Positions 39,162 through 44,087 of a stretch of 64,000 bases of DNA are shown here, piece by piece. The translations under genes were made by a program, and so were the position numbers. A model generated the notes under the pieces. It was not told where the DNA came from. It was given only the letters and a program-made list of their open reading frames with translations, and did no database searches. Position 1 is the first letter of the stretch, and each line of letters opens with the position of its first letter. This DNA comes from Gemmatimonadaceae bacterium (GTDB lineage: Bacteria > Gemmatimonadota > Gemmatimonadetes > Gemmatimonadales > Gemmatimonadaceae), in the NCBI GenBank assembly GCA_036003045.1, contig DASYSS010000017.1:1-64000 (forward strand). Reading direction: 5' to 3'.

Positions 39162-39488
39162 ATGCTTTTCAGAAAGGCGCGCACACGACAGACGCGCATC
39201 GCGCGCGCATTCTATTGTGACATCCTGGAAGGCCGACAAGTGTGGGACGGAGAGCGCGAACGGCGCGCGGATCTGTCGTTCATCGTCGAGGGAACGCGCA
39301 TCGACGTCGGTGCGAGCGGGCCGGCCGACGACAGCGAGGCGGTCGTTCTCTCGGTTCCCAACCCGGACGCGGTGGCTGAGCGATGCTGGGATGCCGGCTA
39401 CAGCGTTCGCGTGGCCGATGAGGCCACGGGTGAGACGGCGCTGTCCGTGATCGATCCATTCGGCCGCCGCATCGATCTCGTCCGATGA
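39162..39488 (+). CDS. VOC (glyoxalase/bleomycin-resistance-like) protein
   Basis: A 108-residue single VOC-type module: ARAFYCDILEG is the first beta-alpha unit, LSFIVEGTRIDVG the next strands, and SVIDPFGRRIDLVR the final Asp-Pro-Phe-Gly turn that closes the domain. The metal ligands cannot be assigned with confidence. GGAGGAGG lies directly before the ATG. The gene overlaps the SigJ-type sigma gene by 4 bp, so the two are translated together. A sensor or binding role for the sigma factor is possible, but the family also includes enzymes and resistance proteins. Confidence 0.75.
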   Translation: MLFRKARTRQTRIARAFYCDILEGRQVWDGERERRADLSFIVEGTRIDVGASGPADDSEAVVLSVPNPDAVAERCWDAGYSVRVADEATGETALSVIDPFGRRIDLVR

Positions 39489-40384
39489 CGTCTGTGCCGA
39501 ACCCCAGCGAAACTCGCTCGGATGTCTTCGCGTCGACGCGACCGCTGCTCTTCGCGATCGCGTATCGCATGCTCGGCAGCGTCACCGACGCCGAGGACCT
39601 GGTGCAAGACGCGTATCTCCGATGGCTCGAGGCGCCGGAGAGGGATGTGCGGGCGCCGCGCGCGTATCTCGCGACGATCGTCACTCGGCTCGCCATCAAT
39701 CACATGCAGTCGGCGCGTACCAGACGCGAAACCTACGTGGGGCCGTGGCTCCCGGAGCCGCTCATGACCGAACACGCGCCCGATGCCTCCGAGCCCCTCG
39801 AGCTGGCGGAGTCGTTGTCGATGGCGTTTTTGATGATGCTCGAGCGACTGTCGCCGACCGAACGTGCCGTGCTGCTCCTGCACGACGTGTTCGAGTTCGA
39901 CTATTCCGAGATCGCGCGCATCGTCGACAAGTCCGAGGTGAACTGCCGCCAACTGCTGACGCGCGCGAAAAAGCACATCGGCGAACCGCGCGTGCGCTTC
40001 GACGTCGACCCGGCACAGGGCGACCGATTGCTCCACCGATTCATCGAGGCAACGCGTGCCGGCGACATCGACGGGTTGGTCGGCGTGCTCGCGGAGGACA
40101 TCACGCTCTGGGGCGATGGCGGCGGCAAAGTCACGGGCGCGGCGTTGCGCCCGGTTCACGGCGCGGGATCGGTGGCGAAATTCGTGGTTCAGCGGGCCCG
40201 AAGCGGTGCGTCGCCCGAAAACACGCTGCGTCCGACGCGGATCAACGGGCAACCGGGCTTCGTCATTTACCGCGATGGACAACCGCTCGCGGCGCTCGTT
40301 CTCGATGTCCGCGACGAGCGGATCCACAACATCTACGCGATCGCGAATCCCGACAAGCTCCACGCTCTCGCCTTGCCGGCGTAG
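39485..40384 (+). CDS. sigJ: ECF sigma factor, SigJ/ECF41-type
   Basis: A 299-residue ECF sigma factor. Region 2 (about 12-80) shows LLFAIAYRMLGSVTDAEDLVQDAYLRW; region 4 (about 105-165) shows LSPTERAVLLLHDVFEFDYSEIARIVDKSE. A SnoaL-like C-terminal domain follows (170-299) with the characteristic WGDGGGKV at about 212-219, which in ECF41-type factors controls activity in place of an anti-sigma factor. ECF41 genes usually sit beside a carboxymuconolactone or oxidoreductase-type gene; here the neighbours are a VOC protein (4-bp overlap) and a membrane protein. The symbol is given by similarity of architecture. Confidence 0.9.
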   Translation: MTSVPNPSETRSDVFASTRPLLFAIAYRMLGSVTDAEDLVQDAYLRWLEAPERDVRAPRAYLATIVTRLAINHMQSARTRRETYVGPWLPEPLMTEHAPDASEPLELAESLSMAFLMMLERLSPTERAVLLLHDVFEFDYSEIARIVDKSEVNCRQLLTRAKKHIGEPRVRFDVDPAQGDRLLHRFIEATRAGDIDGLVGVLAEDITLWGDGGGKVTGAALRPVHGAGSVAKFVVQRARSGASPENTLRPTRINGQPGFVIYRDGQPLAALVLDVRDERIHNIYAIANPDKLHALALPA

Positions 40385-40429: not shown

Positions 40430-40996
40430 ATGTATTCCATATTTCTGTTCCTGCACATCGTCGGCGCGCTCGGCATTTTCGCCGGCATGGCAATCGAACA
40501 AGCTGCGCTGATCAACCTGCGTCGCGCGAGAACGATCTCGCAGGCCAGCGAGTGGCTGTCGCTGTCGCGCGGGCTGCAGCGCTTCGCCGGACCGTCGGCT
40601 CTGGCCCTGCTCGCCACCGGCGTCTACATGATGGTCACGCGCTGGAGCCATCAGGCGTGGGCGGGGCTCGGGCTCGTCGGCATGATTCTGCTTGCATTGA
40701 TCGGCGCGCTGGTCACCGGGCGACGAATGAAGCCGATTGGACAAGCGCTACTCTCCGGCGACGCGAGCGGACCGCTTCCTACGACGGTGCGCGAGCGACT
40801 CGCCGATCCCGCGCTACGATTGTCGGCGTGGGTGCGCCTCGGGCTGGCGCTCGGAATCGTGTTCAACATGTCCGTGAAACCTGGAACGACAGGAGCCGTC
40901 GCCGCCCTGCTGGTCGGATCGGCGATCGGAGCGCTGGCGGCGCAACTCGCCGGTGGATTCTCACGCCCAATGCGTCGGCCCGCGGCGCAAGAGTAG
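40430..40996 (+). CDS. Integral membrane protein (DUF2269-like)
   Basis: A 188-residue membrane protein with about four TMs: YSIFLFLHIVGALGIFAGMA, SALALLATGVYMMV, LGLVGMILLALIGALV, and two near the C-terminus. GGAGGA is 9 nt before the chosen ATG; the frame opens 42 bp earlier without a ribosome site. It follows the sigma factor after 45 bp, so it is probably its target or in its transcript. Function is unknown. Confidence 0.75.
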   Translation: MYSIFLFLHIVGALGIFAGMAIEQAALINLRRARTISQASEWLSLSRGLQRFAGPSALALLATGVYMMVTRWSHQAWAGLGLVGMILLALIGALVTGRRMKPIGQALLSGDASGPLPTTVRERLADPALRLSAWVRLGLALGIVFNMSVKPGTTGAVAALLVGSAIGALAAQLAGGFSRPMRRPAAQE

Positions 40997-41002
40997 AGGG
41001 TC

Positions 41003-41035
41003 TTGACCAACTATAGCCACTGTGGCTATAGTTGG
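41003..41035 (+). promoter_or_regulatory. PadR operator overlapping a leaderless promoter
   Basis: TTGACC (41003-41008), an 18-bp spacer and TATAGT (41027-41032) form a strong promoter. A perfect palindrome, 14-bp arms around a single T (41007-41020, 41022-41035), covers it from the -35 to the -10 element. The padR start codon is at 41038, only 5 bp past the -10 element, where transcription should begin, so the mRNA probably has no leader. A bound PadR dimer would exclude RNA polymerase. Confidence 0.8.
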
Positions 41036-41037
41036 CC

Positions 41038-41397
41038 ATGACGGTCGATCGCGACGAGGTCGCGGCGCTCCTTCCCCTCCCGCCCGCCACCTTTCACATC
41101 CTGCTCGCTCTTCTGGACGAGGATCGGCACGGCTATGCGATCATCCAGGATGTCGAAGAGCGCACGGGCGGCGAGCTGCGCATGAGCGCCGGAACGCTCT
41201 ACCGCTCGATCGCGCGGATGGTCGAGCAGGGACTCATCAGCGAGGTCGCGAAGCGCCGCCCCGACGATGACGACGCGCGGCGGCGTTACTACCGGCTGAC
41301 GGCCTTGGGCAACGCCGTGGCGCGCGCCGAGATGGGCCGTCTTTCCGACCTCGTGCGTCTGGCCCGTCAACGAGGACTCACGCCGGGGACGACGTGA
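41038..41397 (+). CDS. PadR family transcriptional regulator (paired with ADOP 2)
   Basis: A 119-residue PadR: PATFHILLALLDEDRHGYAI, then MSAGTLYRSIARMVEQGLIS and the wing DDDDARRRYYRLTALG. It belongs to a different subgroup from the other two PadR proteins in the window (longer N-terminus, no GWG motif). The ATG at 41038 is used in place of a TTG 6 nt earlier, which lies inside the palindrome. The next gene starts at GTG overlapping the TGA by 4 bp. Autoregulation through the palindrome is very likely. Confidence 0.92.
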   Translation: MTVDRDEVAALLPLPPATFHILLALLDEDRHGYAIIQDVEERTGGELRMSAGTLYRSIARMVEQGLISEVAKRRPDDDDARRRYYRLTALGNAVARAEMGRLSDLVRLARQRGLTPGTT

Positions 41398-44087
41398 GGC
41401 GCCTCTATCGCGCGCTGCTCCATCTCTACCCACGACGCTTCAGCGAAGAATACGGCGAGGAGCTGTGGCGCGCTTTCGAGCAATCCGCGCGCCACCGCTC
41501 GACGCTCGGCCGGCTCGCGGCGGCGCTGAGCGACGTCATGCCGAACGCGATCGCCGCGCACTGGGATGTTCTGCGGCACGGCGCCGCCGCCGGAACGACC
41601 TGGCCCGCATTCGGGAGCGACATCCGCTTCGCATTTCGACAGATCAAGGCCGCGCCTCTCGTTTCCGGCGTCGTGATCGCCGTGCTTGCGCTCGGCATCG
41701 GGATCAACGCCGGTCTGCTCACCGTTCTCGACATCTTCGTGTGGCAGCCGGCGCCCGGCATTTCGCGCGACGCGTCGCTCGCGCGCCTGCTGCCTCGCGC
41801 GTCACGCCCCAACGGGCGGGGGGAGAAGAGCTCGACTTCCCTGTCGTACCCCGAGATTCTCGAGCTCCGGGAGCGGCGCGACGTCTTCGCGGATGTCGCC
41901 GGTTGGACGAGTCTACCCCTCGGGGTCGATTTGGGCGCCGGCGCCGAATCGATGACGACCTTTTTTCCGACAGCGAATTTGTTCCGCGTGCTTCGCGTGT
42001 CGCTCGCCGCCGGGGCCGGCTTTCCCGACGAAGCCGACCGATCGTACGTGCCATCCGCCATCATTCCGCACTCGATCTGGATGACGCACTTCGGCGGGTT
42101 GCCGGATGTGATCGGAAAGACGATCCGCGTGATGAATCAACCGTTCACCATCGTCGGCGTCGCCCCGCCGCTTTTCAACGGACCCGACATCCAGGCGTTC
42201 GGACAGCCGGCGATCTGGGTTCCCCTGGGCACACGCGGGTCGCTCGCGCCGAGCGATGCTCGAGATGTCTCGGCTCGGCGGACTGTGGCCTTCCGAACAG
42301 TCGCGCGGCTCGCGCCAGGCGTCGCGCCAGACGACGTCGCCCGGATGACGACAGCGACCGCGACGCGACTCGCGCAGCTCGAGCCGACGAGGCATGCGAG
42401 TCTAACGATCGACGCAGTACGACTCACCGCCATGCGCCCCGGTGGCGACCGGACGGAGACGATCGCCGGGATCGCGCTCGTTGCCGCGCTGATCGTCGTG
42501 ATCACCTGCACCAACGTCAGCGCGCTGCTCCTCGGACGCGCGGCGGCGCGTCGCCGGGAGATCGCGGTCCGGCTCGCCCTCGGCGCGACGCGGCGCCGGC
42601 TCATTCGACAAATGCTGACGGAGTCGCTCGTCCACGCGCTGCTCGGCGCCACGGTCGCGCTCGTGTTGTATGCCGTGGTCATCAAGCTCGCGTACGCGAC
42701 CATTCCCGACATCATTTATGGGTTGACGCCGCGGCTGCCGACGTTTCTCTCCGCGGCCGCGCTCGCGCTTGTGACGACGATCGTCTTCGGCCTCGCGCCC
42801 GCGCTGCACGCGACGAACGCCGACATCGGCGAGGCGATGAAGAACAGCGGGAGCGGCTCCATTCAGCGTTCGCGGGTGCAGACGTTGTTCGTCGTAGCGC
42901 AATTGGCGTGCAGCCAACCGGTGCTAGTCGTCACGTCGCTCGTGCTGGCGGACTTACGCGCGTCGGCAAACGAGAACGCGTCACGGGCGCCGGCGTCAGT
43001 GATCACGATGGCGTCGACGTTGATGAGGCCCGAGCATTCTGCGGCGTCTGAGAGTCGCGACGCCGTGGCGGATCTCCGTGCTGTGCAGTCGATTCGCGAC
43101 CGACTCGAGCGCGTTCCGGCTGTGCTTTCGGTCGGCCTCAGCACGGAGGGCGCCGGCGTCAGCGCGGAGGGCGAGGAGGGAAGGTCGATCGTCATAACCG
43201 GGCGAGCGGACGTGGCGGCCGGCGGCGGAGTTCCGACGCGCCTTCATCAACTCTACGTGAGCTCGGGATACCTCGCGACGCTCGGACGGCCGATCACTCG
43301 CGGTCGCGCGCTCACTCCGGATGACGATCGCGCGGGTTCATCGGCCGTCGTCGTCAACGAGGCAGCGGCATCGGCTCTCTGGCCCGGTGAGAATCCAATA
43401 GGCAAACGTCTCTCACGCCAATCCGACGACGGACTGCAATCGACGCCGCTCGAGGTGGTCGGCGTGGTTGGCCGCGCTCCTTACGAGGGTGAAGAGACGG
43501 AACCGACCGCGCTGGTCTACGCGCCGCTTTCGACGGCCTCGGGTTGGTGGGACGCGAGACTTGCCGTGCGAACGGCAGGAGACGCTCGCGCGACGCTGCC
43601 ACAGCTACGCGCCGCCATTCGCGAAGTAGAGCCCTACGCCGCCCTCGGCGACATCTCGACGCTGGCGGAGCGCTACGCGGCGCAGCGGCAAGAGGCGGTG
43701 CAGTCGAACGCCGCCGCGTTCGCGACCGGCGCCGCCGCGTTGGTGCTCGCGTCACTCGGTCTCTACGCGATCATCGCGTTCGCGGTCGCGCAGCGTACGC
43801 GGGAAATCGGCGTGCGCATGGCGATGGGCGCGAGCCCGAAGCGCGTGGTTCAGGAATTCTTCAAGAACGGCGTCCGCGTATCGGCGATCGGTCTCGCGAT
43901 CGGACTGCCGGCGACGGTGATCGGCATCAGACTCGTCAAAGCAAGTCTCTTCGGATTCACGATTCACAACGTCGCCGCGGTGCTCGTCGTCGTGCCGATG
44001 CTCATCGCCGTGGCGGGGGTGGCGAGCTGGCTGCCGGCGCGGCGCGCCGGGCGAGTCGACCCGCTGATCGCGTTGCGGGCCGAATAG
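41394..44087 (+). CDS. ADOP-type ABC transporter permease 2
   Basis: An 897-residue permease starting at GTG in the padR stop (GTGA). The N-terminal helix region is of the shorter kind, MRRLYRALLHLYPRRFSEEYG, unlike the EELRLHIEM-type N-terminus of the other two. Two MacB-like units follow (PLVSGVVIAVLALGIGINAG; LALVTTIVFGLAPALHATNA; then the second half ending SWLPARRAGRVDPLIALRAE). QRTREIGVRMAMGASPKRVV is the family's signature loop. It would act in the inner membrane; the ATPase partner is not encoded here. Confidence 0.92.
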   Translation: MRRLYRALLHLYPRRFSEEYGEELWRAFEQSARHRSTLGRLAAALSDVMPNAIAAHWDVLRHGAAAGTTWPAFGSDIRFAFRQIKAAPLVSGVVIAVLALGIGINAGLLTVLDIFVWQPAPGISRDASLARLLPRASRPNGRGEKSSTSLSYPEILELRERRDVFADVAGWTSLPLGVDLGAGAESMTTFFPTANLFRVLRVSLAAGAGFPDEADRSYVPSAIIPHSIWMTHFGGLPDVIGKTIRVMNQPFTIVGVAPPLFNGPDIQAFGQPAIWVPLGTRGSLAPSDARDVSARRTVAFRTVARLAPGVAPDDVARMTTATATRLAQLEPTRHASLTIDAVRLTAMRPGGDRTETIAGIALVAALIVVITCTNVSALLLGRAAARRREIAVRLALGATRRRLIRQMLTESLVHALLGATVALVLYAVVIKLAYATIPDIIYGLTPRLPTFLSAAALALVTTIVFGLAPALHATNADIGEAMKNSGSGSIQRSRVQTLFVVAQLACSQPVLVVTSLVLADLRASANENASRAPASVITMASTLMRPEHSAASESRDAVADLRAVQSIRDRLERVPAVLSVGLSTEGAGVSAEGEEGRSIVITGRADVAAGGGVPTRLHQLYVSSGYLATLGRPITRGRALTPDDDRAGSSAVVVNEAAASALWPGENPIGKRLSRQSDDGLQSTPLEVVGVVGRAPYEGEETEPTALVYAPLSTASGWWDARLAVRTAGDARATLPQLRAAIREVEPYAALGDISTLAERYAAQRQEAVQSNAAAFATGAAALVLASLGLYAIIAFAVAQRTREIGVRMAMGASPKRVVQEFFKNGVRVSAIGLAIGLPATVIGIRLVKASLFGFTIHNVAAVLVVVPMLIAVAGVASWLPARRAGRVDPLIALRAE

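Follow-up and report, generated by a model that had tools for sequence, protein, structure and literature searches.

A padR gene whose promoter is overlain by a long palindrome, and whose start codon lies where transcription should begin, raises the question whether the palindrome is the operator of the encoded PadR protein and whether padR is translated without a leader. A sequence-only reading of the locus had predicted both, together with coupling to the downstream ADOP permease gene. We addressed the question in the window, i.e. the whole 64,000-nt stretch of DNA that was analysed, from a soil bacterium, and in relatives of the PadR protein. Judged from sequence comparison, the element as a whole is best explained as a promoter that contains the operator of the PadR expressed from it, and we hold this with high confidence. 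The features are listed in Table 1.

Table 1. Features of the padR locus, with positions in the window
Feature	Position	Strand	Basis
-35 element TTGACC	41003..41008	+	sequence; TTG -35 in relatives
29-bp perfect palindrome, centre T41021; imperfect extension 41000-41042	41007..41035	.	sequence, chance test
19-bp conserved operator core TATAGCCACTGTGGCTATA, putative PadR-dimer site	41012..41030	.	conservation, single genomic copy
-10 element TATAGT, doubles as right half-site of the operator	41027..41032	+	sequence; register kept in relatives
padR start codon ATG	41038..41040	+	sequence, open frame, comparison with relatives
padR, 119 aa, PadR family winged-helix regulator	41038..41397	+	PF03551, AF2 model, fold
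codons 50-61 SAGTLYRSIARM, recognition helix segment tracking the operator	41185..41220	+	correlation; helix 51-63 in model
ADOP-type MacB/FtsX permease gene, GTG start	41394..44087	+	TIGR03434, PF12704, PF02687

The perfect 29-bp palindrome (CCAACTATAGCCAC-T-GTGGCTATAGTTGG) was found as described, with 14-bp arms around one central base, and it extends imperfectly to 21-bp arms that are 90% complementary. No other perfect palindrome in the window has an arm of this length, the runner-up reaching 8 bp, and 30 sequences of 64 kb simulated with a first-order Markov model gave longest arms of 8–13 bp. The promoter elements are all present as well: TTGACC, an 18-bp spacer, TATAGT and, after the 5 nt TGGCC, the ATG, so that its A is nucleotide 6 counted from the end of the -10 element. 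That the palindrome covers the whole promoter holds for the spacer and the -10 element but not for the -35 element, of which only the last two bases lie inside; the entire -35 element is included only in the imperfect 43-bp extension. Since the palindrome lies 10 nt beyond the stop codon of the upstream gene (40994-40996), it might be the intrinsic terminator of that gene, or else a product of chance. However, the hairpin is not followed by a U-run, none of the simulated sequences reached 14-bp arms and the frame is conserved in relatives, which leaves either origin with a practically negligible probability.

Two sets of relatives were compared. For the first, 179 genomes of the family to which the window belongs were searched at the protein level, which yielded 76 matches at E ≤ 1e-20 from 38 genomes, 72 of the matches usable (three were left out, and L103, which starts at residue 40, was dropped). 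For the second, a single genome per species was scanned, and 80 loci were obtained, 79 of them usable (L246 was too short), mostly from Acidobacteriota, with some Gemmatimonadota and Chloroflexi. Each upstream 19-mer was rated for TATA at both ends and a palindromic interior, the maximum score being 13. With the reservation that relatives share descent, so that the counts do not represent independent events, and that the two sets have at least five contigs in common (e.g. L172 and L078), a score of at least 11 was reached by 48 of 72 relatives in the family set (shuffle mean 0.08) and 57 of 79 in the second set (0.17 in shuffles), and a score of at least 9 by 61 of 72 (shuffle mean 2.86) and 75 of 79 (7.1 in shuffles). 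The search for the motif before related padR genes thus returned the 19-bp frame in front of most relatives, far above shuffles.

The conserved operator is probably this TATA-N11-TATA core with its palindromic interior, which overlaps the spacer and the -10 element. The earlier view of the palindrome as operator thereby stands in part: a candidate operator does precede most relatives, but these keep 19 bp, and the promoter-wide 29-bp palindrome was dropped as the conserved unit. The frame is constant and its interior differs by subclade (TATAGCCA, TATATCCG, TATATCGA and TATACCGT, further TATAAACA, TATGATCA, TATAGTCG and others). In 39 of 73 second-set loci (e.g. L170, L176 and L186) an extra half-site of the TATA type is placed precisely 15 bp before the operator, where it flanks the -35 element; it has been lost in the window and may admit a second dimer.

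The palindrome could also act in RNA. If padR were read through from upstream, a hairpin might bring AGAGGG (~40995-41000) close to the AUG as a Shine-Dalgarno (SD) sequence; the strand 41003-41040 does fold strongly (-21.2 kcal/mol), and the SD-like sequence would come to lie ~8 nt from the AUG once the hairpin has formed. Only 4 of 73 relatives, however, have an SD core 3-26 nt before the operator, and relatives preserve the promoter elements and the TATA ends but often break the inner pairing, while the operator sequence tracks the DNA-recognition helix of the protein. We consider an RNA hairpin very unlikely, and return to the palindrome as a DNA operator.

The protein encoded by padR matches PF03551 with 65.8 bits (curated cut-off 27) and is thus a PadR family member; the match to TIGR03433 (padR_acidobact), 54.3 bits, is below the curated cut-off of 101.8. 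The AlphaFold2 model (mean pLDDT 90.6) has helices at residues 5-10, 16-24, 32-42, 51-63 and 89-111, and a fold search with it placed LmrR chains at the top and other PadR proteins among the best solved structures. Length and architecture are those of the small PadR proteins (PadR-s2, LmrR-like), which have ~110-130 aa, a winged HTH and one long C-terminal helix. The window PadR is 82% and 79% identical to L170 and L171, which are labelled Acidobacteriota, and at most 75% identical to relatives in its own family; this suggests cross-phylum horizontal transfer or mis-binned contigs.

Operator and recognition helix vary together. In 61 operator-protein pairs, the correlation of operator distance was 0.62 for the helix and 0.49 for the remainder of the protein; with that remainder controlled for, a partial correlation of 0.47 between operator and helix was left, which none of 999 permutations reached (highest value 0.12). 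Among 76 scanned windows of 12 residues, 50-61 tracked the operator interior best. Where proteins were less than 45% identical elsewhere, the mean operator distance was 0.34 for helices at least 75% alike (n=18) vs 0.77 for helices less than 50% alike (n=333). That the operator interior follows the recognition helix best speaks for binding of each PadR to its own operator, and positions 50, 53 and 57 would be among the strongest residues of the proposed code.

A different regulator might nevertheless occupy the palindrome, the neighbouring PadR acting elsewhere. Apart from the covariation between the interior and the recognition helix of that PadR, the genomic distribution speaks against it: the genome of 5.37 Mb has a single copy of the 19-bp core, even with up to three mismatches allowed, and this idea is hardly credible. 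The exact-class pattern TAYANCCNNNNNGGNTATA occurs at two places, the padR locus and the promoter of the closest paralogue (C33). A regulon beyond the own operon was rejected on the same grounds, and the single core and the two-place pattern fit a dedicated autorepressor. Among the other padR genes of genome G000, which has 68 PadR domains, 61 promoters were surveyed, omitting five PadR genes of the window's clade and two weak matches; repeats, direct or inverted, in which 11 or all 12 of 12 positions match were present in 20 of 61 vs 2 of 183 shuffles. Many of these promoters (e.g. L012, L017, L022 and L060) seem to have private operators, and in L012 the second copy of a direct repeat includes an SD-like GGAGGAG right before the start codon.

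The start of padR leaves little choice. Upstream, its frame stays open no further than 41032, so that ATG 41038 and TTG 41032 are the sole candidates, and since the latter begins within the -10 element the start codon is unambiguous. The -10 element occupies the place where an SD sequence of padR would sit: TATAGT begins 11 nt before the ATG, which puts a -10 box within ~12 bp of the start codon with no SD, as is typical of leaderless genes. The upstream neighbours have the same orientation, and read-through could therefore be a further source of padR mRNA. Those just upstream are a SigJ-type ECF sigma factor gene (39485-40384; TIGR02957 SigX4, 360.8 bits) and a gene for a small membrane protein.

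In the family set, the geometry was counted for the 61 relatives with an operator score of at least 9. Twelve of these, including the window, combine a TTG -35 element, a 16-18-bp spacer, a right half-site that is the -10 element and 5-8 nt to an ATG or GTG, and the TTG stands at 16-18 bp in each of the 11 others; L083, outside this count, is by eye apparently leaderless and has a second operator. The second set gave a sharper picture. In 48 of 79 relatives a -10 box, matching the consensus at no fewer than 4 of 6 bases, is separated by 5-8 nt from an in-frame ATG or GTG; each of eight other 4-nt bins holds 3-7 of 79. The distance is exactly 6 nt in 32 of the 48, the window discriminator of 5 nt being 1 nt below this mode, and 27 of the 48 have a perfect TTGACA. 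No alternative in-frame start occurs before residue 14 in 37 of the 48, and in the remaining 11 no SD core precedes the alternative starts. By phylum, as we assigned it from the record titles, the geometry is present in 40 of 52 Acidobacteriota, 5 of 7 Gemmatimonadota, none of 15 Chloroflexi and 3 of 5 relatives with other labels; the 31 second-set relatives without it include all 15 Chloroflexi.

A spacing held fixed across two phyla is otherwise hard to explain, which argues that the start codon is also the transcription start, and from this comparison the padR mRNA seems to begin at its start codon. Alternatively, the operator might be real and bound by PadR, and a message with a short leader might come from another promoter, so that padR would not be leaderless. 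Many relatives with the same frame do look leadered, with the left half-site at the -10 position and gaps of mostly 19-69 nt (register L), and L082, which is 72% identical, has the operator but its start codon 46 nt beyond the right half-site; the Chloroflexi also lack the short gap. In the window, the two possible starts and a promoter near consensus speak against this, as does the 5-8-nt gap kept in two phyla, and we regard a short leader as unlikely. In the Chloroflexi L230-L232, L239, L242, L243 and L248 the operator frame is kept and the leaderless geometry is absent, and several of them show, by eye, a second overlapping operator copy directly after the first (TATATCC...GGATATATCC...). 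Taken together, the comparison lends strong support to both leaderless translation and autorepression by the adjacent PadR, as far as sequence can.

Leaderless genes seem to be a minority in the window's genome. For the 1037 candidate starts of 293 long ORFs, SD cores are most frequent at a distance of 5-8 nt, and TANNNT lies 5 and 6 nt upstream of 8 and 10 of these starts vs ~3 per position, a small excess that lends weak support to leaderless starts. The accessible part of an earlier survey gives 13.3% leaderless genes for three Acidobacteria genomes (PMC3160421).

The stop codon of padR and the start codon of the ADOP gene overlap as GTGA (41394-41397). The permease scores 593.6 bits against TIGR03434 over residues 3-803 of 803, just short of the cut-off of 622.3, and has the ADOP architecture of MacB_PCD (PF12704) and FtsX (PF02687) in two stretches each. 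In 47 of 73 family loci an ADOP match starts no more than 300 nt from the padR stop, and so it does in 55 of the 78 second-set loci with enough DNA, where the junction is an NTGA overlap in 26 and a close TGATG-like arrangement in 17. The overlap fits the predicted coupling, and the effect on ADOP translation would follow from it. PadR relatives are up to 82% identical to the window protein, but identity to the ADOP of the window is only ~30% for most partners, so that promoter and regulator are better conserved than the transporter; the low partner identity may reflect fast divergence or partner exchange. No ADOP match was found downstream in L086-L090, L097-L099 and L112, which have TATATCGA/TATATCGG-type operators. 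The literature searched yielded almost nothing on ADOP permeases, a single paper using the term.

We propose that RNA polymerase would use TTGACC-18-TATAGT and initiate at A41038 or within one or two bases, giving an mRNA that opens with AUG and would be translated without a leader. A PadR dimer would occupy the 19-bp core with one winged helix per TATAGCC half-site, mask the spacer and the -10 element and so silence both padR and the ADOP permease gene that overlaps it translationally. A ligand presumably relieves this repression, by analogy with the action of drugs on LmrR. For the clade, we think it reasonably probable that there is one frame, TATA-N11-TATA, in which a few recognition-helix residues determine the five inner bases, and that in Acidobacteriota and Gemmatimonadota the operator is fused with a leaderless promoter, the right half-site being the -10 box and transcription and translation beginning together. 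Since about ten operator classes can be matched to recognition-helix classes, a PadR specificity code would be directly testable. If true, this would be family-wide leaderless translation of autorepressors across phyla, with operator, -10 box and start codon fitted into ~40 bp, and would offer a readable natural specificity code with mutually orthogonal repressor-operator pairs as well as a first regulatory handle on ADOP permeases.

In the literature searched, largely outside the subscription journals, we found no leaderless PadR, no TATA-N11-TATA operator of a PadR protein and no PadR helix-operator code. Leaderless autorepressors as such are already known, according to the accessible part of PMC3017554, from AcuR, lambda cI and Tn1721 TetR. 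The closest functional precedent there is AcuR of Rhodobacter sphaeroides (acuR-acuI-dddL), likewise an autorepressor encoded by the first gene of its operon with an inverted repeat over the promoter, and with a transcription start at the AUG by 5' RACE (PMC3017554). However, AcuR belongs to the TetR family and not to the PadR family, its operator is TAATAGAC-n6-GTCTATTA, and its partner genes encode acrylate enzymes whereas the partner in the window is a permease (PMC3017554). The leaderless repressor messages of lambda cI and Tn1721 tetR, cited in the same source (PMC3017554), belong to unrelated protein families and are isolated cases, in contrast to a family-wide promoter design.

Within the PadR family the nearest relative is LmrR of Lactococcus lactis, a small PadR with the same fold, which acts as a repressor of lmrR itself and of an ABC transporter but does so, in the available text of PMC4534193, from separate lmrR and lmrCD operator regions. 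The PadR operators described so far are, in the portion of PMC3506622 that is available, ATGT/ACAT repeats 8-10 nt apart. Neither ATGT nor ACAT of the canonical site ATGT-N8-10-ACAT occurs within 41000-41042, and the window differs from the LmrR motif in having TATA-N11-TATA instead of ATGT/ACAT (PMC3506622). Bacillus cereus bcPadR1, another small PadR, binds in the region of its own promoter and is probably autoregulatory, but its site is a degenerate ATGT-(N)10-ATAA (PMC3506622). By analogy, the window system would work like AcuR and LmrR, with a PadR domain, and differ in its operator frame and in the fusion of the operator with a leaderless promoter.
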